Below, in pieces: positions 18 to 27,669 of a DNA stretch of 35,217 nucleotides. The first letter of the stretch is position 1. Every line of letters starts with the position of its first letter. Source of the stretch: a virus; IMG/VR virus record IMGVR_UViG_3300047470_000130, positions 1 to 35,217 of that record; one strand, written 5' to 3'. The notes below the pieces were generated by a model. The model was not told the DNA's origin. It was given only the letters and a program-made list of their open reading frames with translations, and made no database searches. The translations under genes were made by a program, and so were the position numbers.

Positions 18-299
18 ATGATCGATATTGTCTCTGGCACTACGTATGTTCGTAGCGCTGAGAGCGCTCTGCAAAGTTTGGCACGTAAGCTGCCGATTGC
101 TGGAACAGCGTACAGTTTGAAAAGGCAAATTAACAGGCACAACCACGCCTTTGATCCGGGAACGCCAGTTAACTTGTGGCACGACGACGCTGCCCAGTTA
201 GATAGCATCACCCAAATGTACGATAAAGCGCTAAGCATTCATCCGCCGGTATCGACAATGTTTAATGAGGAAGACTATGAACGTCATACCCGAAGATAA
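18..299 (+). CDS. Unrecognised small protein upstream of a SecB-like gene (possibly 5'-truncated by the window edge)
   Basis: This 93-residue reading frame stays open to the left edge of the window, and no clear Shine-Dalgarno sequence precedes the ATG at 18, so the true start may lie outside. I do not recognise the family. The protein is soluble and mixed alpha in appearance, with an acidic, polar C-terminus and no signal peptide or membrane segment. It overlaps the start of the next gene by 23 bases, so the two are probably translationally coupled and work together. Base composition is richer in A+T than in the phage structural genes, which fits accessory cargo. A partner or toxin/antitoxin role with the SecB-like neighbour is possible, but the sequence does not show it. 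Confidence 0.55.
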   Translation: MIDIVSGTTYVRSAESALQSLARKLPIAGTAYSLKRQINRHNHAFDPGTPVNLWHDDAAQLDSITQMYDKALSIHPPVSTMFNEEDYERHTRR

Positions 300-756
300 G
301 GTGAACCCGGAGTTCAGTGACGTCTATATTGCTGAAACTAAAGCGTTTTTCGCTGACGGCTATGACCCTATTTTCGACAGCGGTCTAGCTTCTCTAAGCT
401 TAAGAAGTCTAGTCTCTGTAAGTAGATCGCAAACTATAGTTTCGAAAAACGACGGAACCGGACGATTTCGAATTTTTTTTGATTTCGGAGCAAGATGGTG
501 GAAAGTAGATAACGATGCCGAGCCAGAGCCTCAAGCAACAGTCGGTTCAAATGACGATAATGCCTTAATTGTCATCGAGTGCGGAATCGTTGCTGAGTTT
601 CTATTATCAAAACGGTACGAGCAAACCGATTTGGACAACTTCGCCATAGGCGAGGCTGTTAATTATGTAATTCCTTACTGGAAAAACTATCTTATATCTC
701 AATGTGGATTGATGCGACTGCAGGACTTAGTGCTTCCAGATGGAGATAACAACTGA
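277..756 (+). CDS. SecB-like chaperone family protein
   Basis: The 159-residue product is read from the ATG at 277, which has a GAGGA Shine-Dalgarno a few bases upstream. An ATG-less extension to 265 is less likely. The C-terminal half has the pattern of SecB-like proteins: a beta-strand stretch around IVIECGIVAEFLL (about residues 100-112), then a segment reading VIPYWKNYLISQCGLMRL (about 130-147), comparable to the SecB helix that follows the conserved Pro-Tyr. SecB proteins hold unfolded clients. SecB-like paralogues outside the main secretion locus often serve toxin-antitoxin-chaperone modules or phage and mobile loci. The coupled upstream gene could supply the client. Family assignment is by eye and moderate. 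The client is unknown. Confidence 0.5.
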   Translation: MNVIPEDKVNPEFSDVYIAETKAFFADGYDPIFDSGLASLSLRSLVSVSRSQTIVSKNDGTGRFRIFFDFGARWWKVDNDAEPEPQATVGSNDDNALIVIECGIVAEFLLSKRYEQTDLDNFAIGEAVNYVIPYWKNYLISQCGLMRLQDLVLPDGDNN

Positions 757-801: not shown

Positions 802-996
802 TCATGACACACTTTTGAAGAACGCATGATGGCCTCGGGTCAGCATCATCTTAGCGCGGTTCGTCCACTTCGGCGCTACCGGCAATCGTGGTCGCCTCAT
901 TGTGCGTTGCCCGCTGGTAGGGTCCGGCACCTTCCCGTCGATCACTTTGTCAGCGGCTACCGGGCACTGCGCGAGTTCCGCCGTCAATCTAACCAT
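802..996 (-). pseudogene. Relic C: C-terminal fragment of a SleB-type cell wall hydrolase
   Basis: The minus strand encodes a degraded match to the C-terminal half of the intact hydrolase at 5074-5499. The relic reads ELAQCPVAADKVIDGKVPDP where the intact gene reads EFAQAQIAADQVIDGKVPDP, and it ends HHAFFKSVS against QHIFFKDVP. The middle (about 860-925) has lost the conserved Tyr-Tyr-Ala-Thr region through small indels. The N-terminal half, with the catalytic Glu, is missing. It is therefore non-functional. It occupies the 757-1073 gap between the SecB-like gene and the plus-strand cargo, and nothing else is recognisable there. Confidence 0.85.
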
Positions 997-1073
997 CGCA
1001 ATCCCCCTCCCGGCGTTCTGCCGACCGCCCCCCCTCTCCCTGCTACGCTTCCTCCATCCACGGAGGACTCACA

Positions 1074-1283
1074 ATGCCAGATTCCGATATACTCCCGACC
1101 CTTCTCTTCAAGATCAACGAAAACCAGCTCGCCCTGGAAGCCACCATCATGGAGCTTTCGAACTGGGTAGAGCAGCGAGGAGCGGCCGACGTCGCCGACA
1201 ACGTGCGTGGCGCCTTGGACACCATCGATAAAAATGAAGAGTTCATCAAGCTGACGCTCGCGGTACTGACGACGCCGGAGTGA
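1074..1283 (+). CDS. Small hypothetical protein (69 aa)
   Basis: The product is a 69-residue acidic, mostly helical soluble protein, read from an ATG preceded by a GGAGGACTCACA Shine-Dalgarno region. The strong ribosome binding site and normal codon use support a real gene. I do not recognise a family or catalytic motif. It precedes the LexA-boxed operon, but its own promoter region does not contain the box, which lies downstream at 1332. It may be a host-type accessory gene carried with the SRAP protein. Confidence 0.6.
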   Translation: MPDSDILPTLLFKINENQLALEATIMELSNWVEQRGAADVADNVRGALDTIDKNEEFIKLTLAVLTTPE

Positions 1284-1331
1284 TCCGTTTGCATTCCGTC
1301 GCGAGCATTCGCCATCGCACCCCGCCTCGTT

Positions 1332-1351
1332 TACTGTATATTCAAACAGTA
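1332..1351 (+). promoter_or_regulatory. LexA (SOS) box upstream of the coiled-coil/SRAP operon
   Basis: The sequence TACTGTATATTCAAACAGTA matches the gammaproteobacterial LexA operator core CTG-N10-CAG (CTG at 1334, CAG ending at 1349) with an AT-rich spacer. It lies 17 bp before the GTG of the next gene, where bound LexA would block transcription. Binding is inferred. Confidence 0.85.
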
Positions 1352-1367
1352 TCCGTAAGGCGCAACA

Positions 1368-1688
1368 GTGGACCCCTACGACATCGAAGACACTAGCGAT
1401 TGGCTCGGCACTCCGACCAGGCTGGAAACCGTCAAACATTACGCCCATATGCTCGAGGAGGACATCGAAGAGCTGAGGCGGCAACTGCATGCGGCGAAGG
1501 AAAACATTTCCACCCTTGTCGAAATGAACGACCAGCTGTCAGCCGAACTCCAAAAGAAGCGGGTATGGATGGCGAGCCTGGAGGCGGAGACAACCGACCA
1601 GCTTTCCCAGATCCAAAGCCTGACTCGGGTCTTGGATCAAAAAGAAAGGATCATTCGCGAGTTGCAAGCGGGCAATCTGAGGGGCTGA
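1368..1688 (+). CDS. SOS-controlled coiled-coil protein (106 aa)
   Basis: The frame starts at a GTG just downstream of the LexA box, with an AAGG Shine-Dalgarno element about 8 bases upstream. Residues 20-100 form an almost continuous heptad-like coiled coil rich in Glu, Leu, Gln and Lys, with no membrane segment. It resembles the small coiled-coil proteins that often accompany SRAP genes in Pseudomonas genomes and phages, but I know no assigned function. Only two bases separate its stop from the SRAP start, so the two are cotranscribed and probably coupled, under SOS control. Confidence 0.7.
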   Translation: MDPYDIEDTSDWLGTPTRLETVKHYAHMLEEDIEELRRQLHAAKENISTLVEMNDQLSAELQKKRVWMASLEAETTDQLSQIQSLTRVLDQKERIIRELQAGNLRG

Positions 1689-1690
1689 AA

Positions 1691-2383
1691 ATGTGCGGAC
1701 GACTTTCCCAATACGATGGCATTCACGACTTCGTGGCGGCACTCAGCATGCCCAACCCTTTTGTTAACAGTACCGGTGACCAGCCGTTCGAGCGGTACAA
1801 CGCCGCCCCGACAACCCAGCTCGCCATCTTTCACCAGGAAGGTGAATACCTGCACGCCGACATGGTGCGCTGGGGCTGGCGCCCGCATTGGGCCAAGGAC
1901 CGGGCTGCACCGATCAATGCCAGGGTGGAGAAAGTCGCACACGGCCCCTTCTTCCGCGCAATTTGGCCGCACCGGGCAATCATTGCCATCAACAACTGGT
2001 TTGAATGGGTGGATGAAGGCGGACCGAAGAAGCAGCCCTATCTGATCCGCCGCCGTGACGGGGCGCCGATACTGTGCGCAGCGATTGGCCAATACCCGAA
2101 CGCCGAGCATGAACCGAGCGAGCATGACGGCTTCGTCATCATCACCGCCGACAGCGCCGGTGGCATGGTGGACATCCACGACCGCCGACCAGTGACGCTA
2201 TCGTCAGAACTGGCCCGTGAATGGCTCGACCCGGCCACGCCAAAGGAGCGTGCTGAACAAATGGCGATGCACCAGGGCGAGCCCACCGATGCATTCGAGT
2301 GGTTCAAGGTGGACCGCGCGATTGGCAATGTGCGCAATCAGGGTTATGAGCTGATTAAGCCGGCCCATCATTCATTTCTCTGA
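1691..2383 (+). CDS. SOS response-associated peptidase (SRAP/HMCES/YedK family)
   Basis: The 230-residue protein begins MCGRLSQ. Cys2 becomes the catalytic N-terminal nucleophile after Met removal and forms a thiazolidine crosslink with abasic sites in single-stranded DNA. Other hallmarks are visible: the asparagine of APINARVE (about residues 76-83), the active-site glutamate in NNWFEW (about 103-108), and the histidine in DIHDRRPV (about 162-169). The length is typical of the family. The protein shields abasic sites at replication forks in the cytoplasm. It follows a coiled-coil gene by two bases behind a LexA box, so it should be induced by DNA damage, the same signal that would induce the prophage. 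It could equally be host-derived cargo. Confidence 0.92.
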   Translation: MCGRLSQYDGIHDFVAALSMPNPFVNSTGDQPFERYNAAPTTQLAIFHQEGEYLHADMVRWGWRPHWAKDRAAPINARVEKVAHGPFFRAIWPHRAIIAINNWFEWVDEGGPKKQPYLIRRRDGAPILCAAIGQYPNAEHEPSEHDGFVIITADSAGGMVDIHDRRPVTLSSELAREWLDPATPKERAEQMAMHQGEPTDAFEWFKVDRAIGNVRNQGYELIKPAHHSFL

Positions 2384-2445
2384 CTATCGCATTGGACCAG
2401 ACAAGCTGGGTCTCTGTAGACTCGCCCACAAAAAATGGGGCGGCA

Positions 2446-3324
2446 ATGAACGATTTCTTGCAGTACATGATCCAGGTGTTTCAGGGTAACGCCAAAGCAG
2501 TGCTCGTCGCAGCCATGATTACGGCTGCCGTTTGGTTGCTTGAAAGGTGGAGGCCAGCCGTGGCCGACCCTGGCTTAGGTGGTAGGTGGCACAATGTCAA
2601 AGTCTTCATTTTATTGCTAATCGGCTTAACATTCGCAGCTCCCTTATTAAATCTATGCTCGCAACTCTTTCCGAGCATTTCACTGCTTGACCGCATGGTG
2701 CCGGATTGGCAATCAGGAGGCATAGTCGGTGGTATCCTTGCCACTCTCATATATGCATTCATTTGGGACTTTTTCCAATATTGGACCCATCGACTTGAAC
2801 ACAAATATGGTGCCCTGTGGGCATTTCATCGTGTGCATCACAGCGATTCGGACATGAATGCATCAACCGCTTTACGCCAAAGTTTAGGAGGCGCACTAAT
2901 CGGCTACTTCCTTGCGCATATACCGACTTCAATTATATGTGGTGGAAACATGCTGCCATATCTTGGCTCGCTGATATTATTCAGCGGCTGGGGCTACTTC
3001 AATCATGCAAATTTTCGCGCCTCACTAGGGCCAATAACATACATCATTTCTGGCCCACAATGGCATAGACTTCACCATGGAAAAGATAGCAAATATCACA
3101 ACTCAAATTATGCCGCATTTTTTCCTGTTCTAGATCTGATCTTTGGAACTCTGCAGATCCCCGAAAAAAACGAATGGGTGAAAACAGGCATTGAAGATGA
3201 TGTATCACCGCAAAAACCGCTCCCACAAGCATTCCTATCATGGCGAGACAAGTTGCCAGCCACTTCATACATACCTCGACGATATAAACCTGCAATGCTT
3301 TCAAGGCTGCTTGGTCGGCAATGA
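2446..3324 (+). CDS. Sterol desaturase / fatty acid hydroxylase superfamily membrane protein
   Basis: The integral membrane di-iron oxygenase carries the histidine cluster HRLEH, HRVHHSD and HRLHH, spaced as in the fatty-acid-hydroxylase superfamily. About five hydrophobic segments are present. I prefer the ATG at 2446 (292 aa) over the TTG at 2392, because the product then starts directly before the first membrane segment. The substrate is probably a lipid acyl chain or a related lipid, and the family does not tell which. The gene is more AT-rich than its neighbours, suggesting transfer. Its last 9-10 codons (from about 3295) and its stop lie in sequence homologous, on the opposite strand, to the spanin 3' end at 4847-4899. 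Its C-terminus is therefore hybrid. The expression partner is unclear. Confidence 0.85.
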   Translation: MNDFLQYMIQVFQGNAKAVLVAAMITAAVWLLERWRPAVADPGLGGRWHNVKVFILLLIGLTFAAPLLNLCSQLFPSISLLDRMVPDWQSGGIVGGILATLIYAFIWDFFQYWTHRLEHKYGALWAFHRVHHSDSDMNASTALRQSLGGALIGYFLAHIPTSIICGGNMLPYLGSLILFSGWGYFNHANFRASLGPITYIISGPQWHRLHHGKDSKYHNSNYAAFFPVLDLIFGTLQIPEKNEWVKTGIEDDVSPQKPLPQAFLSWRDKLPATSYIPRRYKPAMLSRLLGRQ

Positions 3325-3472
3325 TCTAGGCACGGATACTGAAAACAGACTTGGCTTAGCGTCGTTCACGCGGTTGCAAATGGTCCCACGGCGATCTGGC
3401 CGGCCGACGATTCGCCACGGGCCTCGCTCCATTGCGAGCGAGAATGTCGCGGTCATTTTCGGTTGCCCCCAT
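3297..3472 (-). pseudogene. Relic B: hydrolase N-terminus fused to spanin 3' end
   Basis: On the minus strand a start-like region at 3472 encodes MGATENDRDILAR, matching MTATEKDRDVLAR of the intact endolysin. Indels and frameshifts follow, and the homology resumes at a segment matching its NRVND. At about 3358 the match switches directly to the 3' end of the spanin-like gene: 3297-3349 aligns almost base for base with 4847-4899, with an in-frame stop in the relic. The hydrolase C-terminus and spanin N-terminus are deleted. The relic keeps the same upstream hairpin region as the intact copy. It is non-functional. Confidence 0.85.
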
Positions 3473-3483
3473 ACTTTTCCCCA

Positions 3484-3507
3484 AACAAAAAAGCCCGCGC
3501 AGTGGCG
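3484..3507 (-). terminator. Decayed copy of the terminator found before the intact endolysin
   Basis: The A-run followed by GCCCGCGCAGTGGCGG corresponds to the A-run and GCCCGCGCTTGGCGGGC of the terminator at 5515-5540. The 3' arm has lost pairing, so function is doubtful. It shows that the duplicated block extended upstream of the endolysin. The rest of 3508-3703 holds no recognisable gene, only a short CACGCT/AGCGTG hairpin at 3673-3688 without a U-tract. Confidence 0.6.
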
Positions 3508-3703
3508 GCTCCGTCGTAATGGCCAAACAGTACATCCGTAACCGAAAGGGAAAAAAGGTCTTGCTAACCAAATGAATTGAGGACCAGATCAATAATTGCG
3601 GAGGAGAACAAACAGGGTTTGCATTGGATTTCGCCCGCAAACCGAAGCAATCGACCTATGCGCAATGCCGCCCACGCTTATGAGCGTGAGCAAAGGCGCA
3701 AGC

Positions 3704-4693
3704 TTAAGATCCCTTCTGCATGGTGCAAGCTATGAAATCCCCGTCGCGCACCCAGTCTGTTATGTGCAATCCGGACCTATCAGCCAGAATCTCTGGAGAT
3801 TTCCCAGTGAAGAAAAATACGTGGTAGTGACTAAAGTCGAATCGATAATCAAAGCATGGCGTAGCATGAACAATTCGACCTCCGGGGGACAGCAGCGCAC
3901 CAAGTCTTCGCGTCGTCGCAGCAGGATCAAAAAGATGTTCTAGGACATTATGAGAAAGAATCCCATCGAACTGCATAGACTCGATCTCCGCCCAAGTGGA
4001 GAAGACATGCTCGGAAGAATGGGTGGCACTTGGCTCAAACCCATAAATATCCCATCCTTCTTGTCTAAGGCTTTGTATAGTTTCTGACCACTCACCTCCG
4101 CACCCAAAATCTAAATACACTCCATCCTTTTTTGGCTTAAGCAGTTGGAAGGTTCGAATGATCGACTCGCTCGAATTACCTTCGGAGTAAATGCGATACA
4201 GATTTCTGTAGTCGAGATCGAGCATCTCTTCATCAAGGGCAAGCATCTTTTGAGGCCCAAATATTACCTCGCAGCTCGGGCATACGTGGCGCAATAATCG
4301 ACCGCCAAGGAATGCGCACTGGCTGATCAACTCCTTGAAGTCACCTTCACTACCATTGTGCCCGCAAAGTGGGCATGTGCTGGGCTTATCTGAACCTGAA
4401 ACCTGTTCAATTAAATCAACAGTCCGCCAATGAGCCTTCATGGCATAACGGATAACATTTTGAAGCGCCTGCTCGTCTGGTCGCGCTTCTAAAGCGGCGA
4501 TCCTGGACTCCAAAGAGCTATTAAAGCGTTCAATTTCTTGCTCAAAATTCGCAGCTTCAATAACTTGCTCTTTATACTTGTAGTTATTCAGCACCAGATC
4601 TTCTAACGTGGATGTCCGAACAATTTGCAGCCCGGTCTTCCGCAGCAGTTTATTTACGAACTCGGCTAGCCTTACGGATATTTGTGCGGACAT
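3704..4693 (-). CDS. SAM-dependent methyltransferase with N-terminal coiled coil and zinc-binding Cys cluster
   Basis: The 329-residue protein has a short N-terminal segment and a heptad region (about 40-70). A CPLC...CPSC cluster follows (Cys107, 110, 138, 141), probably a structural zinc site. Next is a class I Rossmann methyltransferase domain with motif I YLDFGCGG (193-200), an acidic strand end in YGFEPS, and a post-motif segment HNVLEHL (249-255) typical of Methyltransf_23-type enzymes. Such proteins are frequent in surface glycan and O-antigen clusters. The substrate cannot be read from the sequence. The gene is AT-rich, stands alone between two copies of the lysis cassette, and looks like a moron. 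Serotype or receptor modification is my inference. Confidence 0.82.
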   Translation of the reverse strand: MSAQISVRLAEFVNKLLRKTGLQIVRTSTLEDLVLNNYKYKEQVIEAANFEQEIERFNSSLESRIAALEARPDEQALQNVIRYAMKAHWRTVDLIEQVSGSDKPSTCPLCGHNGSEGDFKELISQCAFLGGRLLRHVCPSCEVIFGPQKMLALDEEMLDLDYRNLYRIYSEGNSSESIIRTFQLLKPKKDGVYLDFGCGGEWSETIQSLRQEGWDIYGFEPSATHSSEHVFSTWAEIESMQFDGILSHNVLEHLFDPAATTRRLGALLSPGGRIVHATPCFDYRFDFSHYHVFFFTGKSPEILADRSGLHITDWVRDGDFIACTMQKGS

Positions 4694-4812
4694 ATCGGAT
4701 TCTCTTTCAACTTATCACGATCGCTCTTTTTCTGGACCAGTTCGACACAGTCAAAAACGCCCGCAATTCTAGCGGCAGCTGGCAGCGAATGCTCGCTTTT
4801 TTGGGTCAGAGC

Positions 4813-5059
4813 TCATCGGCAGACATTTATCACATCCGACTGAAGCGCCTTCAAGGTTGCTTGGTCAGCAATGATCCCGGCCCGGGTATCGAAAACAGTT
4901 GTTCCAGCAGCTGCAGTGAGTTCGACGGTTCCTTCATCGCCCAGGCCTGCTACTGGTTTCACCGGACACGTTCCCACCACTGGCACGTCAACTTCCCCGT
5001 GATGCGCAGCCGGCAAGCCGAATCAGCAGCACGACATGCGACAGCCAACTGACAAGGCG
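4813..5059 (-). pseudogene. Rz1-like lysis lipoprotein (o-spanin), frameshifted
   Basis: In one minus-strand frame, the codons just after the endolysin stop encode VSWLSHVVLLIRLAGCAS, a signal-peptide core with a lipobox (LAGC) as in outer-membrane spanins. That frame stops at 4988. The adjacent frame carries the rest, from EVDVPVVGTCPVKP to QATLKALQS, ending at 4813. Dropping one base in the run of four G (4995-4998) joins them into a single lipoprotein. It directly follows the endolysin, where spanins lie. No Rz-type inner-membrane partner is visible, and no good start codon or Shine-Dalgarno is seen. A sequencing error in the homopolymer is possible. The family call is moderate. Confidence 0.6.
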
Positions 5060-5073
5060 CTACGCAGGGGGGC

Positions 5074-5499
5074 TTATGGTACGTCCTTAAAGAAGATGTG
5101 CTGGCCGAGCTTCAGCGTCTGCTTCGCTCCTTGAGTCCAGGCCGGAGCAGCTTTCATGCTGGTCGCGTAGTAGTGCGTGGCGCCGCCGGTGGGGTCCGGC
5201 ACTTTGCCGTCGATGACCTGGTCGGCAGCGATCTGGGCTTGGGCAAACTCACGGAAAGGAATCGGCTTGGCGCCACTCAAATAGGCGAAGTTCGGATCGT
5301 TTTTGTTCCAACAGCTGAACTGGTAGGGCTTCTGGCACACGCCGGCATAGCCCTCCCCCCACCAGGACCTTGCCGTGCCATCGTTCACGCGGTTGCGAAT
5401 GGTCCAGGCTACGGCGATCTGGCCAACGAGGCTTTCGCCGCGGGCCTCACCCCAAAGCGTGCGAGCGAGAACGTCGCGATCTTTCTCAGTTGCGGTCAT
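5074..5499 (-). CDS. Phage endolysin, SleB-type cell wall hydrolase (Hydrolase_2)
   Basis: The 141-residue protein begins MTATEKDRDVLARTLWGEARGE, which must be read as two parts: MTATEKDRDVLAR and TLWGEARGE. The WGEARGE segment (about 16-22) carries the catalytic glutamate of SleB/CwlJ-type lytic enzymes. AVAWTIRNRVND, the Trp-Gly and Cys-containing middle, and THYYAT near residue 107 complete the fold. It would cleave peptidoglycan glycan strands at lysis. There is no signal peptide, so export needs the holin. A GGAG Shine-Dalgarno precedes the ATG. The gene follows a terminator and precedes the spanin relic. Two decayed partial copies lie at 802-996 and 3297-3472. The holins sit more than 20 kb away, so the lysis functions are split. 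Confidence 0.9.
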   Translation of the reverse strand: MTATEKDRDVLARTLWGEARGESLVGQIAVAWTIRNRVNDGTARSWWGEGYAGVCQKPYQFSCWNKNDPNFAYLSGAKPIPFREFAQAQIAADQVIDGKVPDPTGGATHYYATSMKAAPAWTQGAKQTLKLGQHIFFKDVP

Positions 5500-5514
5500 G
5501 ATTTTCTCCAGGCG

Positions 5515-5540
5515 AAAAAAAGCCCGCGCTTGGCGGGCTT
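5515..5540 (-). terminator. Rho-independent terminator before the endolysin gene
   Basis: Read on the minus strand, GCCCGCC/GGCGGGC-type arms with a short loop are followed by a run of seven T. It would stop transcripts coming from the DUF6270 gene, so endolysin expression needs antitermination or a local promoter. Confidence 0.8.
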
Positions 5541-5608
5541 GATAAGTGTCGCGATGCTTCAGCTTCAGGCGTGCTTACGATTTACCGCCGAACTGAGTGT
5601 TTAAACCC

Positions 5609-6676
5609 TCAATTGACTTCTCCCCAAGAGTTTACCCCGTTGCCGTATACATCTTGATAAAACGCTCTAACCTGCAACTTTCCTGCGAGGGATGGAAGCC
5701 GGAAGCGAACACTATTTGAACTCTGATACCATCGCACATCTTGGCGAACACCATCGACGTACAGATAGAAAGCAAAACAGGAGGCATCGCACCCCTCACC
5801 ACGCGAAGACAACGAGCACTCTGCTACGACCTCGCCTCTATCTACATATCCAGAAACGCTAATATCTAGATCAGGCGAAACCAATGGCGATTGAACTCGC
5901 AACGGGCTGTGACCAACGCTCATGAACTGATGGCTCTTCCTTATCAATTGCAGCAGCGCATCCTTATAGTAACGATCGCCATAGTGGAAAGGAGAGATAC
6001 CCCAGCGATGGGATTCACTGGCAGTACAAATACCTGATTGGAAGGTTAAGAACTGGTCCTCACGTATGTCATTTCTCAGAGCATCGTACATCCAGTCAAG
6101 GTCTCGATTCGCCTCATCAACTTTATGGCGGTCGACCGGATAGACCGTATCGGTCTTACCCTCAAACTCAGTAGCCCAGTAGGCCTTATTGACTAACACT
6201 CGATTTAGCTTGTTATGTGCTTTCAAAAGATCGAAGAACATCCTAATCCCTTGAAGCCAATATTCGCGACGCTCAGCTGAACCTTGTTTAACCAGCCTGA
6301 ACTCAAGTCCAGGCTCTTTCAGCAATCTGCTTGTAGCCAACTCATCTGATTTGGTTATCATTTCACCAGACGGGAAAACTACCAAATCGTATCTTTCGTC
6401 GATAAAGTCGATCAGGATGATATCTGCCTTATCGATTTTAGCTCCTGCCGTTAGTACTTCTTTAGAGAAGTCATTTGAAACCATGCTACGTTGAAATTTG
6501 GAAGAAATATTATTTAAAGCAGTATCGTTGTCGTATGCCTTTCCAACTAAAGATGCAAACGATGACCTAGCATAGTAGTTGCTCACCTTGAAGCCTCTAG
6601 AGTATTCAATATTAAAAATATCTCTAGATACGCAGCTACCGAAAATCAGGACATTCTTAGTCAATTCGTTAACCAT
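5609..6676 (-). CDS. DUF6270 / SGNH-like protein with C-terminal beta domain
   Basis: The 355-residue product is read from the ATG at 6676 (MVNELTKNVLIFGSCVSRD). The GSCVSRD motif (about 13-19) is the signature start of DUF6270 proteins, an SGNH-hydrolase-like fold whose Ser would be the nucleophile. The late SPFHYGDRYY segment (about 237-246) could supply the catalytic His. Residues from about 260 form a predicted beta-sandwich of alternating strands, possibly carbohydrate-binding. Family members occur near glycan loci and may handle acyl groups on polysaccharides, but no reaction is established here. The gene is AT-rich and lies between the tailspike and lysis genes, the usual moron position. 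A role in surface glycan alteration or in virion-associated deacylation is inference. Confidence 0.7.
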   Translation of the reverse strand: MVNELTKNVLIFGSCVSRDIFNIEYSRGFKVSNYYARSSFASLVGKAYDNDTALNNISSKFQRSMVSNDFSKEVLTAGAKIDKADIILIDFIDERYDLVVFPSGEMITKSDELATSRLLKEPGLEFRLVKQGSAERREYWLQGIRMFFDLLKAHNKLNRVLVNKAYWATEFEGKTDTVYPVDRHKVDEANRDLDWMYDALRNDIREDQFLTFQSGICTASESHRWGISPFHYGDRYYKDALLQLIRKSHQFMSVGHSPLRVQSPLVSPDLDISVSGYVDRGEVVAECSLSSRGEGCDASCFAFYLYVDGVRQDVRWYQSSNSVRFRLPSLAGKLQVRAFYQDVYGNGVNSWGEVN

Positions 6677-6950
6677 CCATGATTCAAATGTGGGTATTAT
6701 TGCCTCGAAAGCCTGACAATGAAACCCCCACGTGATAGCGGCGCGGCGCATTCCGCGCCTCGTTTTCAGCGGTGCGGGGGGAGCGGGGTCTTTCCAACCG
6801 GTCAACCCATACCTGGGCGAGAGGAATAACGAGGAAAAGCCAGGCGACATACATGTTAACGATGTGGTGTGGAGGGCCGCTCGATGGAGGCTGCTCTACT
6901 AAACAATCGCAAATGGCATTGAGCATCTATCAGAGCTGCCCAAGCCGACC

Positions 6951-10449: not shown

Positions 10450-13400
10450 ACGCTCTCCGTTACTTGCATGGCTTCGCCTCCCTGCGTGACGCGCTCAAGG
10501 ATGCGAGCAGCCTTGCTGCTGTGTTGCGCACTGGCCTGAGTGTTGGCTTTGATGTTTTCCAGCTCGGCACGCAGGACACGAAGCTCAGCCACCACGTTGG
10601 TGTTGCTGTTGCCGGTGAGCATCGCCGCCGTCTGACTGGCATTGTAGATCCGGCTCGGGCCTGTAACCTCCAGTTCCGGGCCGTTCTCGCCGACCAGGCG
10701 CAACCCGCCGCCGAAGTCTCCGCCTGAGGCAAAGCCCGGGACGCCGGCTGCTTTTTTCTGCGCGTACTCCTGGGATCCGATCAGCGCCGCCATCAGCTGG
10801 TCGGCGTCAATCGCGCCAGAGCTAAGTCGGCTGACCCAAAAATCAAGTCCAGCCTTATCAGCGTCGCGCTTCAGTACCGACTGGTAGGCGGACGACACAT
10901 AACGCTCCAGGTAGCTTTTGCCATTGACCTGATCGGGTGAGCCGCCATTGGATTTCGTCCCGGCGGCCGCCAAGGCGACAGCGATCTGGTCATAGGTCAT
11001 GGAGCCTGACTGCAGTGCATTGACCCAGCCGGCTTTACCTGCTGGATCCGATGCGCGACCCAGCACAACCTTGTAAATCGACTCGACCAAGGCGGCGTTG
11101 TTTTCGGGCGTGTTGGCCTTGGCTGCACCGTCATCCATCACCGACAGAGCCGCCACAACCGAAGTGTTCATGGCCGCAACGGCGTCCTTGACGGTCTTGA
11201 CAGAGGTGTCGATGCCGTTGAGGGCATCAAGTTGAGCCTGGGCGAATGACAGTTGCTGATCAAACGTCGCCATTTGAGCGTCATACGCCTGCTTGCCCTG
11301 CTCCAGCTGGTCCTGCAGCGTCTTCACGGTCTGCTCTGCGGTGGTCAACTGCTTGCCGTTGATCCGGTCCAGTTCCGCGATGACATTGGCGGTGCGCCCC
11401 TGGTCACGCTGGAAGTCCACCTTCGAGCCGTACTGGTCGGTGGTGTTGTTGCCGAGCGTGTCGAGCGCATCGTTGAGCCCGGTGAAGCCTGCCAGCGATC
11501 CGCCAGAGCGAGCCGTTTGCAGGGCGTTTTGCAGCGTGGCCTGGGCCTGGCTGCGCAAAGCCTTTACGGTCTCGTTCGAGTCACCACGGAGCTTTTTAAG
11601 CGCCGCCCCAAGGTCATTGCTGACTCCCGTCAGTGACTGAACTCCCGAGGTCGCCGTTTTGAGCATGTCGTTGATCGAAGCTGTGCGAGCGTTATAAGCA
11701 TCGGTCGCCGCCTTCTGCTCAGCAGCAACAGCCCGCTTCACCGCATCGCCGGCCCCGGTCGCCGCGCCCTTCAGTGCGTCGACAATGGCCTGAGCCACTG
11801 CTGCCGCCGCCTGTTGCGCTTCCGCCGCGCGCTGCTCAAGCATCGAGTAGGCCGACGCGGCGTTACCTGCCAGGCCGGTCAGTGTGACGAACATGGACCG
11901 ACCGGATTCGGTGGTCACGTCCAGCGCCTCGATCATATCCCGGTAGCCCTGGCGGGTTTCCGGCAGCGCGATATTCAGCGCCGCGAACTGCTTGTTGACG
12001 GCCTCCAGGGTGTCGTCAGCCTTCTCGGTTTCGCTGAAGAAGTTGGCGTAGTAGGTATTGACGCGAGTGGACAGGGCATCGAATCCGCCCGCCATGGCCG
12101 ACAACTGCTCGGCCATCTTGCCGCCGGCAACCGACACATCGAACAGGCCGACGTTCAGGTTGGTCATGACCGTGTTGACGTTTTCGAGGTTCTGCACGAA
12201 CGCCGTCAACGCCTCGACGTTATAGCCATCCAGGCCTGCACCTGTTGCCGAGTTAATCGCCGAAGCCATTGATTCAGCGGTGCTGCTGAACCACTTGGTC
12301 ACCTCCTCCTGGATCTGCTCGGCAGTCTTGTCCTTGGTGCTGATCTTTGTGGCGGCAACGTTGAGGCCGTCGAGCACCCCGTCGTCCAAAGTGACATTGA
12401 GGCGATCGAACAGACCCAGCACGGCCCCCTCGGTAGCGTCATAGGTCGCGTCCAGCGATGCCTGCATTTCTGGATCGAGCGCAGATAGACGGGTGCGCTT
12501 CTTGTTGCTGGAGAACAACCCGCCTTTTTTCTTCTGGAACTCGAACTGCTGGGCGCTGAGATCTCCATCCTCGACGCCGAGCTGAATGCCCTGGTCCTTG
12601 GTCTGCCATTTGCCGCCAAACAGTGAGCCGCCCAGGTATCCGCCGATGGCCGCACCAATGGCTGCGCCAATGCCTGGAATCGGGATCAGGATCTGCCCCG
12701 CTACAGCGCCGGCTGCAGCGCCGACACCGCCAGCTACAGCGCCCTTGACGCCGCTTTGCCCGTAACCGTACAGCGCACCGCCGATCCCATAACCGGCGGC
12801 GCTCAAGCCACTCAGGCCCGAGCCTGCGATCCCGTTAACGCTGCCACCAGCCCCGGCCGAGAAGTTCGAGACGTTGGCATAGCCAGCCGCGGTGGAGCCG
12901 CTACCGCTGCTGAACATTCCGCCGACTGCGCTGCTGCCGTAGTCGTAAACGCCGCTCAGGCCGCCCGACTGATAGGCGCTGTAGAGGTTGCCGCCGGCGC
13001 CACTCAGGAACTTGTATGCCGACGTGCCGTAGCTGGCGAGGTCCGCAAGGCCAAGGCCGCCCGAACCAGCAGGACCAGCAGATCCGCCAAGAGCGCTCGC
13101 TGCTGCGCCGGCACTGCCAGTAAGGCCAAGCGCCCCGAGAATGACCGGCATCACCTGGGACTTAACGGCAATCCGGGCGATCTCGGCAATGATGGTGTCG
13201 GCGAAGTCCTTGAACGACGCCTTGCCAGTCGTGACAAAGCTGACCAGCACGTCCTCGAGGCCGGTGAAGGCCTTGGTGAAAGCCGAGTTGACCTGTCCGG
13301 CAACGTTCTTGACCTGCTCAAGATACGTCTCATAGGCCGATGTGGCGCCGTTGAGCCAGTTGGTTTGCTCGGCCTCGACCGCTTTGTAGTAATCCCTCTG

Positions 13401-15455
13401 CATGTCCAGGCGTTGAGCCAGGGCCTGCCGGACAGCCGCCGTTTCCTGCTTGTAAACACTGTCGTCGATCTGCTTTTTGTTTTTCTGAGCCAGCAGCTTG
13501 TCCAGCTTGTCCTGGTACTCCTGCTGGATCTTGATGTCTTCCTGTAGGCGCCGGCGGGCCTCATCACCCATGCCAACACCAGCAACCGACAGTTCCAGCT
13601 GCTTCTTGGTCGTTGACAGCTGATCGTTCAGCGCATCGACGTAGGTCTGCACTGCTGCCGTTTGCTTTTGGATGCGGCCCGTTTCATTGGTGGACAGGAT
13701 GCTGAGCTTGGTGTCGGCGTCCTGCTCGGCCTTGACCATATTGGCCCGGGCGTCGGCGATCTTCTGGTCGAGTGCTATGCGCTGATCGGCTGAAGTGCTT
13801 TTTTTGCCTTTGGCAGCTTCCAGCGCGGAAATCTCCGACTGGTAGGCGGCGGCGATCCGCCCCTTTTCCTGCTCAATGAGGGCAGCGCTCTGCTCGCTGT
13901 AGTCCTTTTGTGAAAGCAGACCACTCTTTTGCGCCGCATCCAGTACCCGCTGGGAGTTTTGGTATTCGCTAACGATCAGCTTCAGCTGGTTCTGCGCTGC
14001 GTTGAAGGCAGAGAGGTCGACGGCGGATGCAGCCGTAGGCGCAGCATCCTTGAACTGTGCCTTGATGTTGGCAATGTTCTTGTCGATTGCCGTTTGGTCG
14101 AGGCGCTGATCTTTCGGGCTCGACTTCCGGATAGCATCGAGCTGCTTCTGGTATTCCTTGAGCGCCTCGTTGCGCTTCTGCTCATTGGTCCAAGCTGACT
14201 TGGTGAGCGCGTCAACCTTGGTCATAGCCGCAATGCCGGCGCTCTGGACGCGATTGTTTTCCATCTCCGCCTGAACCGTCTCTGCGATTTCAGTCTTGCG
14301 GTTCTTGAGAAGAACAATCTGCTGCTCTAGAAACTTCGTCGAGTCGCTATCAGCCCCGAGATCGTCGCCGAACAGCGACGTCAACAAACCGCCTTTCTTC
14401 CGGCTATCGATGATTTTTTGATAGTTGGCAATCTGCTCATCGATCGAGCGATCCCGGCCAACTTCAAGCGTGGAGTCTAGCGCTCCGGCTGCTGCCGCCT
14501 TGATGCCTTTCCAGGCGCTCTCGATCAGGCCCAGATTTCCAACAACCTGTTTGGCGCGAGTTTCTACCGTATCGGCATAGGTGTCGGTCAAGAGCCTGAC
14601 CGCTTCCTGCTCGCGCCCCTGCTCCTTGAGGGAGATGATCTGCGCGTAAACGGACGCCGTCAGGAAGTTGTATTGATCGTTGAGCTCTTTGGCTGCCGCG
14701 ACAGGGTCCTTACCGATCTTGACGAACTCGGCAATCGTGTCGGCAACGGCCTTGCCGGTGGCTTCCTGCATCGAGATTGCCGCTGTGGCGATCTCCTCGA
14801 AGCTGCCGGATGCAATCTTGCTGCTGCCTGCCAGCTGAGCCAGTGCATCGGCGGCCTTGCCTGTGGTGCCAACAGTTTCTCCGATCTTCGTGGCCATGGC
14901 CGCAAGGCTGTCAGCCGAGGTGCCGGCCGCGTTACCGGTAAGGATCAGGGTCTCGCGATAGCGCGCGGATTCTTCAGCGCCCTTGTAGTAGGCCAGGCCA
15001 AGACCAGCGGCAGCCGCAGCCGCCAGGGTGAACGGGTTGATCAGCCCTGCGACATAGCCACCCAGCGCCTTGGCTGCCGGGCCGACGCCACCAAACATGT
15101 CCTTCAGCTGGCCGCCCTGCTGCAGGAGCACGGTCAGAGGGGCTTGACCAGCCTGGATACTGGTCACAATGTCAGTGAACTGCGCTGGCACTCCACGCAG
15201 GGCTGCGGATGTCTGCTTGGCTGACATACCGAGCTTTTCGGTTTGCCTGGTCAGTCCTTCAGTGGATTTCTCGGCGGTCTTGGTCTGAGTCCCCAGGCCC
15301 TGCATGGACTCTTCAGCATTATCAGCAGACTGGGCCAGCGACAAGGTGGCCTTTTCGGCCTTGCCGCCAGACAGGGCCAGCTTGTCGAGGTCGTCTGCCG
15401 CCTGCGTGGCCTCGTCCGAGTTAATGCGTATGCCAAGCTCGGCAATCGAGGTCAT
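10446..15455 (-). CDS. Tail length tape measure protein with two C-terminal DUF4214 repeats
   Basis: The 1669-residue protein has an early coiled region, then a hydrophobic stretch near residues 120-165 ([19 protein letters not shown]) as in TMP_2-type tape measures. Long coiled coils run from about 300 to 700, a glycine/alanine-rich membrane-like zone from about 780 to 950 ([12 protein letters not shown]), and more coiled coil follows. Near 1450-1570 two DUF4214-like units occur ([13 protein letters not shown] and [13 protein letters not shown]). The C-terminus has [14 protein letters not shown], typical of tape-measure ends. It sets tail length and helps DNA entry. By the lambda rule of about 0.15 nm per residue the tail would be near 250 nm. 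GGAG precedes the ATG. Confidence 0.93.
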
Positions 15456-27286: not shown

Positions 27287-27475
27287 CTACCCCACCATCT
27301 TTGCTGTCTCGCTGTGGGCGTGTCCGTGCAATACCGCCACGACCAGGCCCTGAGGCAGACCATCACCCTTTGCAGCATCGATCGCTTTGGCGATGACGCT
27401 ATCCAGATCGGCGATGGCCTTGTTAATTGCTGGGCTGAGTGGCAATGCGTGATGTAGCCGAGTGACGCTGCTCAT
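27287..27475 (-). CDS. Small hypothetical protein in the lysis region (62 aa)
   Basis: The product MSSVTRLHHALPLSPAINK and onward has one amphipathic helix (IADLDSVIAKAIDAAK) and a histidine-rich C-terminus (VLHGHAHSETAK). The start overlaps the stop of the holin-like gene by four bases (ATGA), implying coupled translation in the lysis cluster. No family is recognised. It could modulate holin timing, but nothing in the sequence shows this. Confidence 0.55.
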   Translation of the reverse strand: MSSVTRLHHALPLSPAINKAIADLDSVIAKAIDAAKGDGLPQGLVVAVLHGHAHSETAKMVG

Positions 27476-27666
27476 TTGCTCAACTTCGGCTGAAGGATGA
27501 CTCGGGCAATCATCACCAGTAGGCCCAGCACACCATAGGCCACCGGCGGCAGCACAGCCTGAAGTTGCGGCATCAACTGCTCAGCGATACCCAGGGCGGC
27601 GATGGCGCCGCCCGCCTGAACGCTGGTCATGCTCAGCGCTTGTTTCCAGTTGTCGATCAGTTGCAT
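27472..27666 (-). CDS. Small holin-like membrane protein (64 aa)
   Basis: The product begins MQLIDNWKQALSMTSVQAGG. It has a hydrophobic first segment (GGAIAALGIAEQL) and a strong second one (PVAYGVLGLLVMIARVIL) before a short basic end (QPKLSK). The NWKQAW-like start and two weak-to-strong helices match small phage proteins of the holin-associated DUF7940 type. It lies three bases after the larger holin gene. It may be a holin partner or antiholin. Confidence 0.65.
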   Translation of the reverse strand: MQLIDNWKQALSMTSVQAGGAIAALGIAEQLMPQLQAVLPPVAYGVLGLLVMIARVILQPKLSK

Positions 27667-27669
27667 GGG

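Follow-up and report, generated by a model that had tools for sequence, protein, structure and literature searches.

Several described systems resemble the locus analyzed here. In P. fluorescens Pf-5, 84-bp direct repeats at tRNA-Cys enclose the 2.6 kb that remain of prophage 05, including a truncated integrase; another remnant, prophage 04, lies at tRNA-Pro, and at prophage 06 an endolysin lies beyond attR that may come from another phage (PMC2647930). Incomplete prophages preferentially lose lysis and structural genes, while integrase genes persist (PMC7744054). CIMEs are decayed ICEs and IMEs that lie in tandem with newer elements, accreted at tRNA sites (PMC7563491), and the P2/P4 hotspots are an example of moron stacking and cargo hotspots in phages (PMC9122126). 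The stretch of DNA studied here (the window, 35,217 nt, positions 1-35,217 of IMG/VR record IMGVR_UViG_3300047470_000130) carries several lysis-gene relics in its left part. The left 3.7 kb of this Pseudomonas phage region probably represent what is left of two older prophages, their left ends compressed and placed ahead of the present one.

Layout of the window and of the phage group

In phages pAN and PseuP_222 and in IMG/VR relatives, the gene order of the phage group is attL, ORF69, variable cargo, a coil gene and an SOS peptidase, facing Rz, endolysin and tail; the far end consists of CI, integrase and attR. ORF69 has 439 relatives in IMG/VR, and several prophage records start exactly at this gene. 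The features of the window are as follows.

18..756, plus strand: unit C cargo, two overlapping ORFs (18-299 and 265-756), initially called SecB-like
808..981, minus strand: relic C, C-terminal part (about 0.59-1.0) of a SleB-type endolysin gene, frameshifted (blastn, tblastn)
993..1073, plus strand: ORF69 leader, joined to relic C within about 12-60 bp
1074..1283, plus strand: ORF69 (phrog_12397), att-proximal gene of the phage group
1368..1688, plus strand: coiled-coil gene, left-end module, convergent with the lysis genes
1691..2383, plus strand: SOS-response-associated peptidase (PF02586, E=2e-46), left-end module, convergent with the lysis genes
2446..3324, plus strand: fatty-acid-hydroxylase-superfamily gene, unit B cargo (PF04116, E=5.5e-27), 3' end overlapping the Rz 3' end
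3290..3348, minus strand: relic B part 1, Rz (spanin) 3' end, 80% identical to 4840-4898 and 81% to L090
3350..3508, minus strand: relic B part 2, endolysin 5' end and near part of the upstream hairpin, about 75% identical to 5369-5536 (cassette A)
3511..3575, plus strand: integrase relic, last 20 codons (VVMAKQYIRNRKGKKVLLTK) and stop, 79-84% identical to integrase 3' ends of Pseudomonas genomes
3576..3643, no strand assigned: integrase-to-tRNA-Leu(UAA) spacer with tRNA terminator, homology stopping 12-13 bp short of the tRNA
3704..4693, minus strand: class I SAM methyltransferase, unit A cargo (PF13489, E=1.2e-16)
4813..5016, minus strand: Rz spanin of cassette A, truncated, C-terminal part only (PHROG_13 positions 88-152 of 154)
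5074..5499, minus strand: SleB-type endolysin of cassette A, intact (PF07486, E=1.3e-18)
5504..5541, minus strand: terminator-like hairpin upstream of endolysin A (MFE -17.6 kcal/mol over 5500-5545, z=-2.9)

Gene order and neighbouring genes were given correctly in the initial annotation, apart from two labels. For the "SecB-like" pair, Pfam, NCBIfam, PADLOC and PDB sequences gave no support, and 265-756 gave no family match in any of the four. A relative 58% identical to this unit C cargo is present in the IMG/VR prophage L011, in the same att-to-lysis zone and 5.5 kb from an intact endolysin. The "desaturase" belongs to the fatty-acid-hydroxylase superfamily, its nearest curated model being OlsE with a score well below the cut-off. 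The role given to the SOS operon, which had been read as inserted cargo, also had to be revised. The order of coil gene and SOS peptidase (module 1368..2383) recurs in pAN, PseuP_222 and many IMG/VR prophages, and in relatives ORF69, coil and SOS peptidase form the resident left end, facing the lysis genes. Thus, the SOS module is the normal att-proximal end of the phage group. Unit A lacks ORF69 and the att core, and its methyltransferase has no relatives in IMG/VR or in 399 Pseudomonas genomes.

Three lysis-gene lineages and an integrase end

The Hydrolase_2 domain of endolysin A (profile 1-100 of 100) covers the whole protein, and the gene shares 93% nucleotide identity with L017, the similarity starting at its 3' end. 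The Rz of cassette A comprises 67 aa and aligns to residues 113-165 of the 165-aa phiAH14a Rz, falling short of a full-length Rz with an N-terminal membrane anchor; the stretch 4816-5033 is 80% identical to L090 and 78% to phiAH14a. Hence, of the "intact endolysin plus Rz1-like gene" originally described, the endolysin is intact, whereas the spanin is a C-terminal Rz fragment, neither Rz1 nor intact. Cassette A is a mosaic of an L017-like endolysin and an L090/phiAH14a-like Rz fragment.

Nucleotide alignment of the relics to cassette A gave 108, 52.5 and 72.5 bits, far above the maximum of 24-25 bits obtained in 100 shuffles per alignment. Relic C (815-964) is 68% identical to 5087-5236 of cassette A and 72% to L086 (both blastn; tblastn, 65 bits). 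It aligns with the 3' part of endolysin A, confirming its assignment as a hydrolase C-terminus, and is joined to the ORF69 leader of the next unit (joint 981-993). Homology of this leader with other prophages begins at 993 (L046) or at about 1040 (L014, L013). Relic B was likewise correctly described as a hydrolase N-terminus joined to a spanin 3' end: both pieces align with cassette A and abut at 3348/3350, the endolysin piece spanning fraction 0.01-0.30 of the gene with 76-78% identity to the intact endolysins of L071, L114 and L055. This exact joint had no match in the viral contigs searched. The claim that relic B retains the same upstream hairpin did not hold, as the next junction truncates the far arm, and what is left (z=+0.5, compared to -2.9 in cassette A) folds no better than shuffles. 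B and C are two separate copies and neither is a recent duplicate of A. The idea that they arose by duplication of cassette A was considered and rejected, since both are nearer to the endolysins of other phages than to A.

Directly beyond relic B, at 3508/3511, the unit formed by ORF69, coil, SOS peptidase, cargo and lysis stump is joined to the 3' end of an integrase. A complete relative of this relic, a tyrosine integrase of 343 aa, is carried by L171. The segment 3511-3643, which the initial annotation had passed over, is matched in 37 of the 399 Pseudomonas genomes. Among the matches listed, almost all end at 3643, and in 15 of 15 fetched loci tRNA-Leu starts 12-13 bp beyond the point where the window diverges. 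Unit B therefore combines left-end and right-end genes of a prophage while the body is missing. Since the integrase end normally adjoins the attachment site at the far end of a prophage, the joint points to loss of the prophage body.

The hydroxylase gene has five close copies (window, L009, L010, L213, L214), every one facing an Rz 3' end, with dN/dS values of 0.10-0.31 between copies. In viral contigs it adjoins lysis stumps, and in two genomes it is the sole intact gene of a phage remnant. The Rz 3' end in relic B was perhaps spared because it doubles as the 3' end of the hydroxylase gene, which is presumably retained for a benefit to the host.

Origin of the stacked units

Three lysis-cassette lineages thus follow one another in the window, and att cores are absent between the units. 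In the most probable scenario, the body of each older prophage would have been deleted, the deletion starting in or just upstream of the lysis genes. In unit B it would end in the 3' end of the unit's own integrase, and in unit C at the ORF69 leader of the next unit. Left behind in each case would be att-proximal cargo with a lysis stump, and if phages kept integrating at a single tRNA attachment locus and then collapsing, such cargo would be stacked before the newest prophage. We infer both the order of these events and tandem lysogeny as the starting state; the window has no att core, complete integrase or host flank, so tandem integration is not directly visible. Cryptic prophages are usually flanked by direct-repeat att sites, which disappear once decay extends to the edges; none were found in the window, where 3560-3720 has no significant second copy. 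The collapse model offers no explanation for how 3643 came to be joined to the methyltransferase. The initial annotation had set an unrelated ancient prophage against its own model as the source of the relics. This was half right: the relics would stem from older prophages, but from related ones.

Relatives show the same kind of stacking. In the isolate genome L163, a 119-nt direct repeat (94%), one copy of which lies inside tRNA-Cys, brackets ORF69, cargo, an Rz relic and a decayed integrase within 7.9 kb in total. In L068, an Rz relic is joined to a 3' fragment of an integrase; att-like repeats lie on either side, at 5538 and 9709, and a further ORF69 follows at 10494. L214 contains an ORF69 relic, the hydroxylase gene, an Rz relic, an integrase relic and tRNA-Pro within about 1.9 kb, flanked on either side by chromosomal genes. 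A lysis-integrase junction like that of unit B is therefore found in L163, L068 and L214. In L009, hydroxylase gene, Rz relic and ORF69 leader are arranged as at relic C. L234 carries an ORF69 relic flanked by two truncated integrases, then tRNA-Leu and another ORF69 beyond; both L068 and L234 contain serial units with integrases. The break points vary: truncated integrases at tRNA-Leu were predicted to lie against lysis stumps, but in none of the five fetched cases (L230-L234) did they.

The same joints could also arise by unequal, homology-poor recombination between replicating phage genomes. The lysis region of one phage would thereby be joined to the integrase, att site and left end of a second one, and C, B and A would move together within a single phage. 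Integrase, attP, ORF69 and lysis genes are contiguous when phage DNA is circular or concatemeric, and one misaligned crossover would suffice. The mosaic cassette A fits such exchange, as does L114, where a complete endolysin is accompanied by a second N-terminal stump joined to the tail. However, the solitary collapsed units of L163 and L214, with direct repeats or beside tRNA genes, are chromosomal and lack a phage body, and in L213 the Rz-hydroxylase pair persists without any phage. Moreover, ORF69 relatives occur in just two annotated phage records, and none of the arrays seen was in a free phage. We consider this explanation unlikely, although it is the strongest of the alternatives.

The initial annotation proposed that cargo entered step by step through recombination at the lysis genes and that a piece of a lysis cassette stayed behind every time. 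Stumps indeed flank cargo in many relatives: outside the window 23 lysis relics were found, 20 of which keep the 3' end, a strong bias that, for Rz, partly reflects detection, the Rz C-terminus being the better conserved part; in L036 and L158 the Rz gene may be divergent but intact. In L017, L052 and L103, the SOS peptidase is separated from a newer lysis cassette by a lysis stump. If cargo had entered at the lysis genes, the joints should hold cargo and lysis sequence only, but the window shows the integrase end (3511-3575) with its tRNA flank (to 3643) and the ORF69 leader at 993, and ORF69 leaders, coil genes or integrases abut the stumps of L009, L036, L068, L163 and L214. Stumps of tail genes occur as well. 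As a control, 266 tail-side ORFs from relatives were used in place of the window's own tail, head and early proteins, the relatives having other tail types; the same intervals contained 6 tail-gene clusters versus 16 lysis relics. In L021 and L117 the deletion ends within tail genes, preceding a second ORF69, hence lysis genes are not a special site. What survives of the proposal is a stepwise build-up in which part of a phage is left each time, with cargo between the stumps; that recombination at the lysis genes drove it is very unlikely.

Misassembly of several related prophages is, if anything, less credible still. The window is an IMG/VR contig, many related prophages exist in the source environments, and no relative carries the exact order C-B-A, but the same kinds of joint are present in the isolate genome L163 and in the genomes L214 and L234, and five records share the hydroxylase-Rz joint. 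One of the two origins initially considered for B and C, a single copy into which the SOS/hydroxylase block was inserted, can practically be dismissed: their endolysin portions do not overlap, but B also holds the Rz 3' end, expected on the side of C after a single split, C lies outside ORF69, and the ORF69-coil-SOS block is the resident left end.

Comparison with described elements

The proposed stacking of collapsed prophages would be accretion of decayed elements at tRNA attachment sites, which is already known; it would extend prophage decay and introduces no new mechanism. As in CIMEs, the elements would have decayed by internal deletion and would lie in tandem with newer ones at a single attachment site. 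Unlike CIMEs, the elements of the window are temperate phages, and the att core between the units has been lost. It is conceivable, if rather doubtful, that the collapsed left ends play the part of CIMEs among phages: they would hold cargo modules at tRNA attachment loci, to be picked up whenever a related phage integrates next to them. If so, the newest phage could carry off the passenger genes of its predecessors. Such loci also provide a readable record of phage passenger genes turning into bacterial genes, and prophage callers may merge stacked prophages into one and count the stumps as moron insertions.

Compared to the Pf-5 remnants, the window probably holds two or more remnants one after another ahead of a third prophage, lysis and integrase stumps are directly joined, and the cargo is kept. 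The study of biased gene loss relies on gene-content statistics, whereas the window allows individual joints to be read at single-base resolution. Akin to cargo hotspots of phages, the group keeps its variable cargo in one fixed position, between att and the lysis genes. However, in those hotspots cargo is exchanged inside an intact phage, while in the window it probably sits in the stumps of separate prophages.

Attachment flank and layout of the left end

Relics B and C, the two decayed lysis-gene stumps, lie where the initial annotation had placed them, and their similarity to cassette A (endolysin 5074-5499 and Rz fragment 4813-5016, both minus strand) scores far above shuffled sequence (maximum 24-25 bits in 100 shuffles each).

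Features of the window (bit scores against cassette A)
808-981: relic C, C-terminal part of a SleB-type endolysin, frameshifted (72.5 bits)
1074-1283: ORF69 (phrog_12397)
2446-3324, plus strand: fatty-acid-hydroxylase-superfamily gene, weak match to ornithine-lipid hydroxylase OlsE
3290-3348: relic B, 3' end of Rz gene (52.5 bits)
3350-3508: relic B, 5' end of SleB-type endolysin gene and part of upstream hairpin (108 bits)
from 3511, stop 3573-3575: final 20 codons of a tyrosine integrase gene, VVMAKQYIRNRKGKKVLLTK
up to 3643: spacer that in Pseudomonas chromosomes lies between an integrase of this type and tRNA-Leu(UAA)
5609-6850, minus strand: DUF6270 protein (PF19786, E=2.6e-62), with tail spike and endolysin as neighbours on either side

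The stretch adjoining relic B (3511-3643), an integrase end and tRNA spacer, had been overlooked. A complete relative of the integrase (343 aa, C-terminal end VVMTEQYIRNRKGKKVSPTK) is encoded in L171, one of the related loci from IMG/VR records or genomes. The stretch has matches in 37 of 399 Pseudomonas genomes; among the matches listed, nearly all stop at window position 3643, and tRNA-Leu(UAA) begins 12-13 bp beyond the match end in all 15 fetched loci, indicating that the window departs from chromosome-like sequence just short of the attachment core. Host flank, att core and complete integrase are absent from the window.

The layout was compared in phages pAN and PseuP_222, 79 IMG/VR loci and 79 genome loci (loci found via ORF69). 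Where the genes are present, the usual order runs from integrase and att through ORF69, variable genes, a coiled-coil gene (coil) and SOS peptidase, which face Rz, endolysin and tail. Since this layout is resident and several IMG/VR prophage records start exactly at ORF69, the SOS operon, previously described as inserted cargo, forms a prophage's left end and did not arrive by a later insertion. Relic C and its two ORFs, like anything else on the left side of ORF69, are most likely part of a different element. At least two ORF69 copies per locus occur in L027, L030, L033, L046, L055, L067, L086, L112 and L132, possibly marking further stacked units.

The best reading is one of serial prophages, in which successive phages would have integrated at a single attachment locus and each older prophage would have collapsed via a deletion sparing att-proximal cargo, that of unit B ending in its own integrase and that of unit C in the leader of the next unit. 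We infer the starting state and the order of events. Lysis stumps are common because lysis genes come first past the cargo zone. The main rival, unequal recombination between phage genomes, would yield identical joints.

Lineages of the lysis genes

Relics B and C do not overlap each other and, by similarity, belong to separate lineages. Relic B is nearest to the L071 endolysin (78%, versus 75% for cassette A) and relic C to that of L086 (72% versus 68%); as each is nearer to other phages' endolysins, an origin as duplicates of cassette A was rejected. Nor are they halves of one split copy, which had been suggested as one of two possibilities, because B combines the 3' end of Rz with the 5' end of the endolysin. 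The relic B hairpin, previously described as the same as that of cassette A, is cut and folds no better than shuffles, versus z=-2.9 for cassette A.

Cassette A is a mosaic; its endolysin shares 93% identity with L017, beginning at the endolysin 3' end, and its Rz fragment is similar to L090 and phiAH14a. The supposedly intact spanin corresponds only to the C-terminal end of Rz (67 aa; PHROG_13 positions 88-152 of 154). Complete SleB-type endolysins beside an N-truncated or missing Rz are frequent (L031, L051, L088, L092, window 4813-5016), and of 57 complete endolysins, only 32 adjoin an open ORF whose length falls in the range of Rz genes.

One prophage, L053, carries two near full-length SleB-type endolysin copies (3655-4071 and 6125-6547) 2 kb apart. 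L114 is a mirror case of the window: beyond its complete endolysin (10744-11166), towards the tail genes, comes an N-terminal stump of a second endolysin (13622-13723; 95% to L085), still joined to the tail region. A small holin-like ORF in the window (27475-27669, minus strand; MQLIDNWKQALSMTSVQAGGAIAALG...) has the terminase on one side and early genes on the other. At the DNA level it shares 75-81% identity with L092 and L106, where the sequence is beside lysis genes, and with L019, L028, L110 and the L068 Rz/integrase joint, so that a probable lysis gene has moved position between phages.

Cargo genes

The hydroxylase gene, the cargo of unit B, scores 71.9 bits against the OlsE model (cut-off 475), and close homologues are rare in Pseudomonas (2 of 399 genomes). 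The Rz 3' end of relic B sits within its 3' end, and all five close copies found face an Rz 3' end; this overlap and recurrent pairing may explain the persistence of the Rz 3' end. The reading frame is open in 5/5 copies, and pairwise dN/dS (0.10-0.31) fits selection, which does not imply timing after collapse. The DUF6270 protein and the methyltransferase may modify surface glycans.

Collapsed units in relatives and known systems

Parallel collapsed units occur in relatives. In L163, ORF69 and cargo share a 7.9-kb stretch with a stump of Rz and a decayed integrase, bracketed by a 119-nt direct repeat with one copy inside tRNA-Cys. In L214, stumps of ORF69, Rz and integrase, with the hydroxylase gene between the first two, occupy about 1.9 kb next to tRNA-Pro, flanked on both sides by chromosomal genes. 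In L213, no phage-derived piece was recognised besides the hydroxylase gene and an Rz stump, which have an efflux gene on one side and an acyl-CoA ligase gene on the other. In L068, att-like repeats enclose a stump of Rz that runs into the 3' fragment of an integrase, and another ORF69 comes next; L009 runs from hydroxylase gene to Rz stump to ORF69 leader, a joint of the relic C type; and in L036 the coil-SOS module directly follows an Rz. Similarity-based stump counts are biased toward the conserved Rz C-terminus.

Lysis stumps had been predicted to abut truncated integrases at tRNA-Leu. They did not do so in any of the five fetched cases, and the lysis-integrase joint is therefore one among several outcomes. 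Before tRNA-Leu in L234, an ORF69 stump lies between two truncated integrases, with ORF69 also past the tRNA; tail-gene stumps precede a second ORF69 in L021 and L117.

Small prophage remnants are found in Pf-5 at tRNA-Cys and tRNA-Pro, one of them flanked by direct repeats and containing a truncated integrase; Pf-5 also has an endolysin located past an att site (PMC2647930). Incomplete prophages have retained integrases and lost lysis genes (PMC7744054). CIMEs are decayed conjugative elements in tandem stacks at tRNA genes (PMC7563491); the window probably resembles them in its accretion of decayed elements, although its elements are phage. The mechanism itself is not new, and the window is best read as a well-resolved phage case of such accretion.
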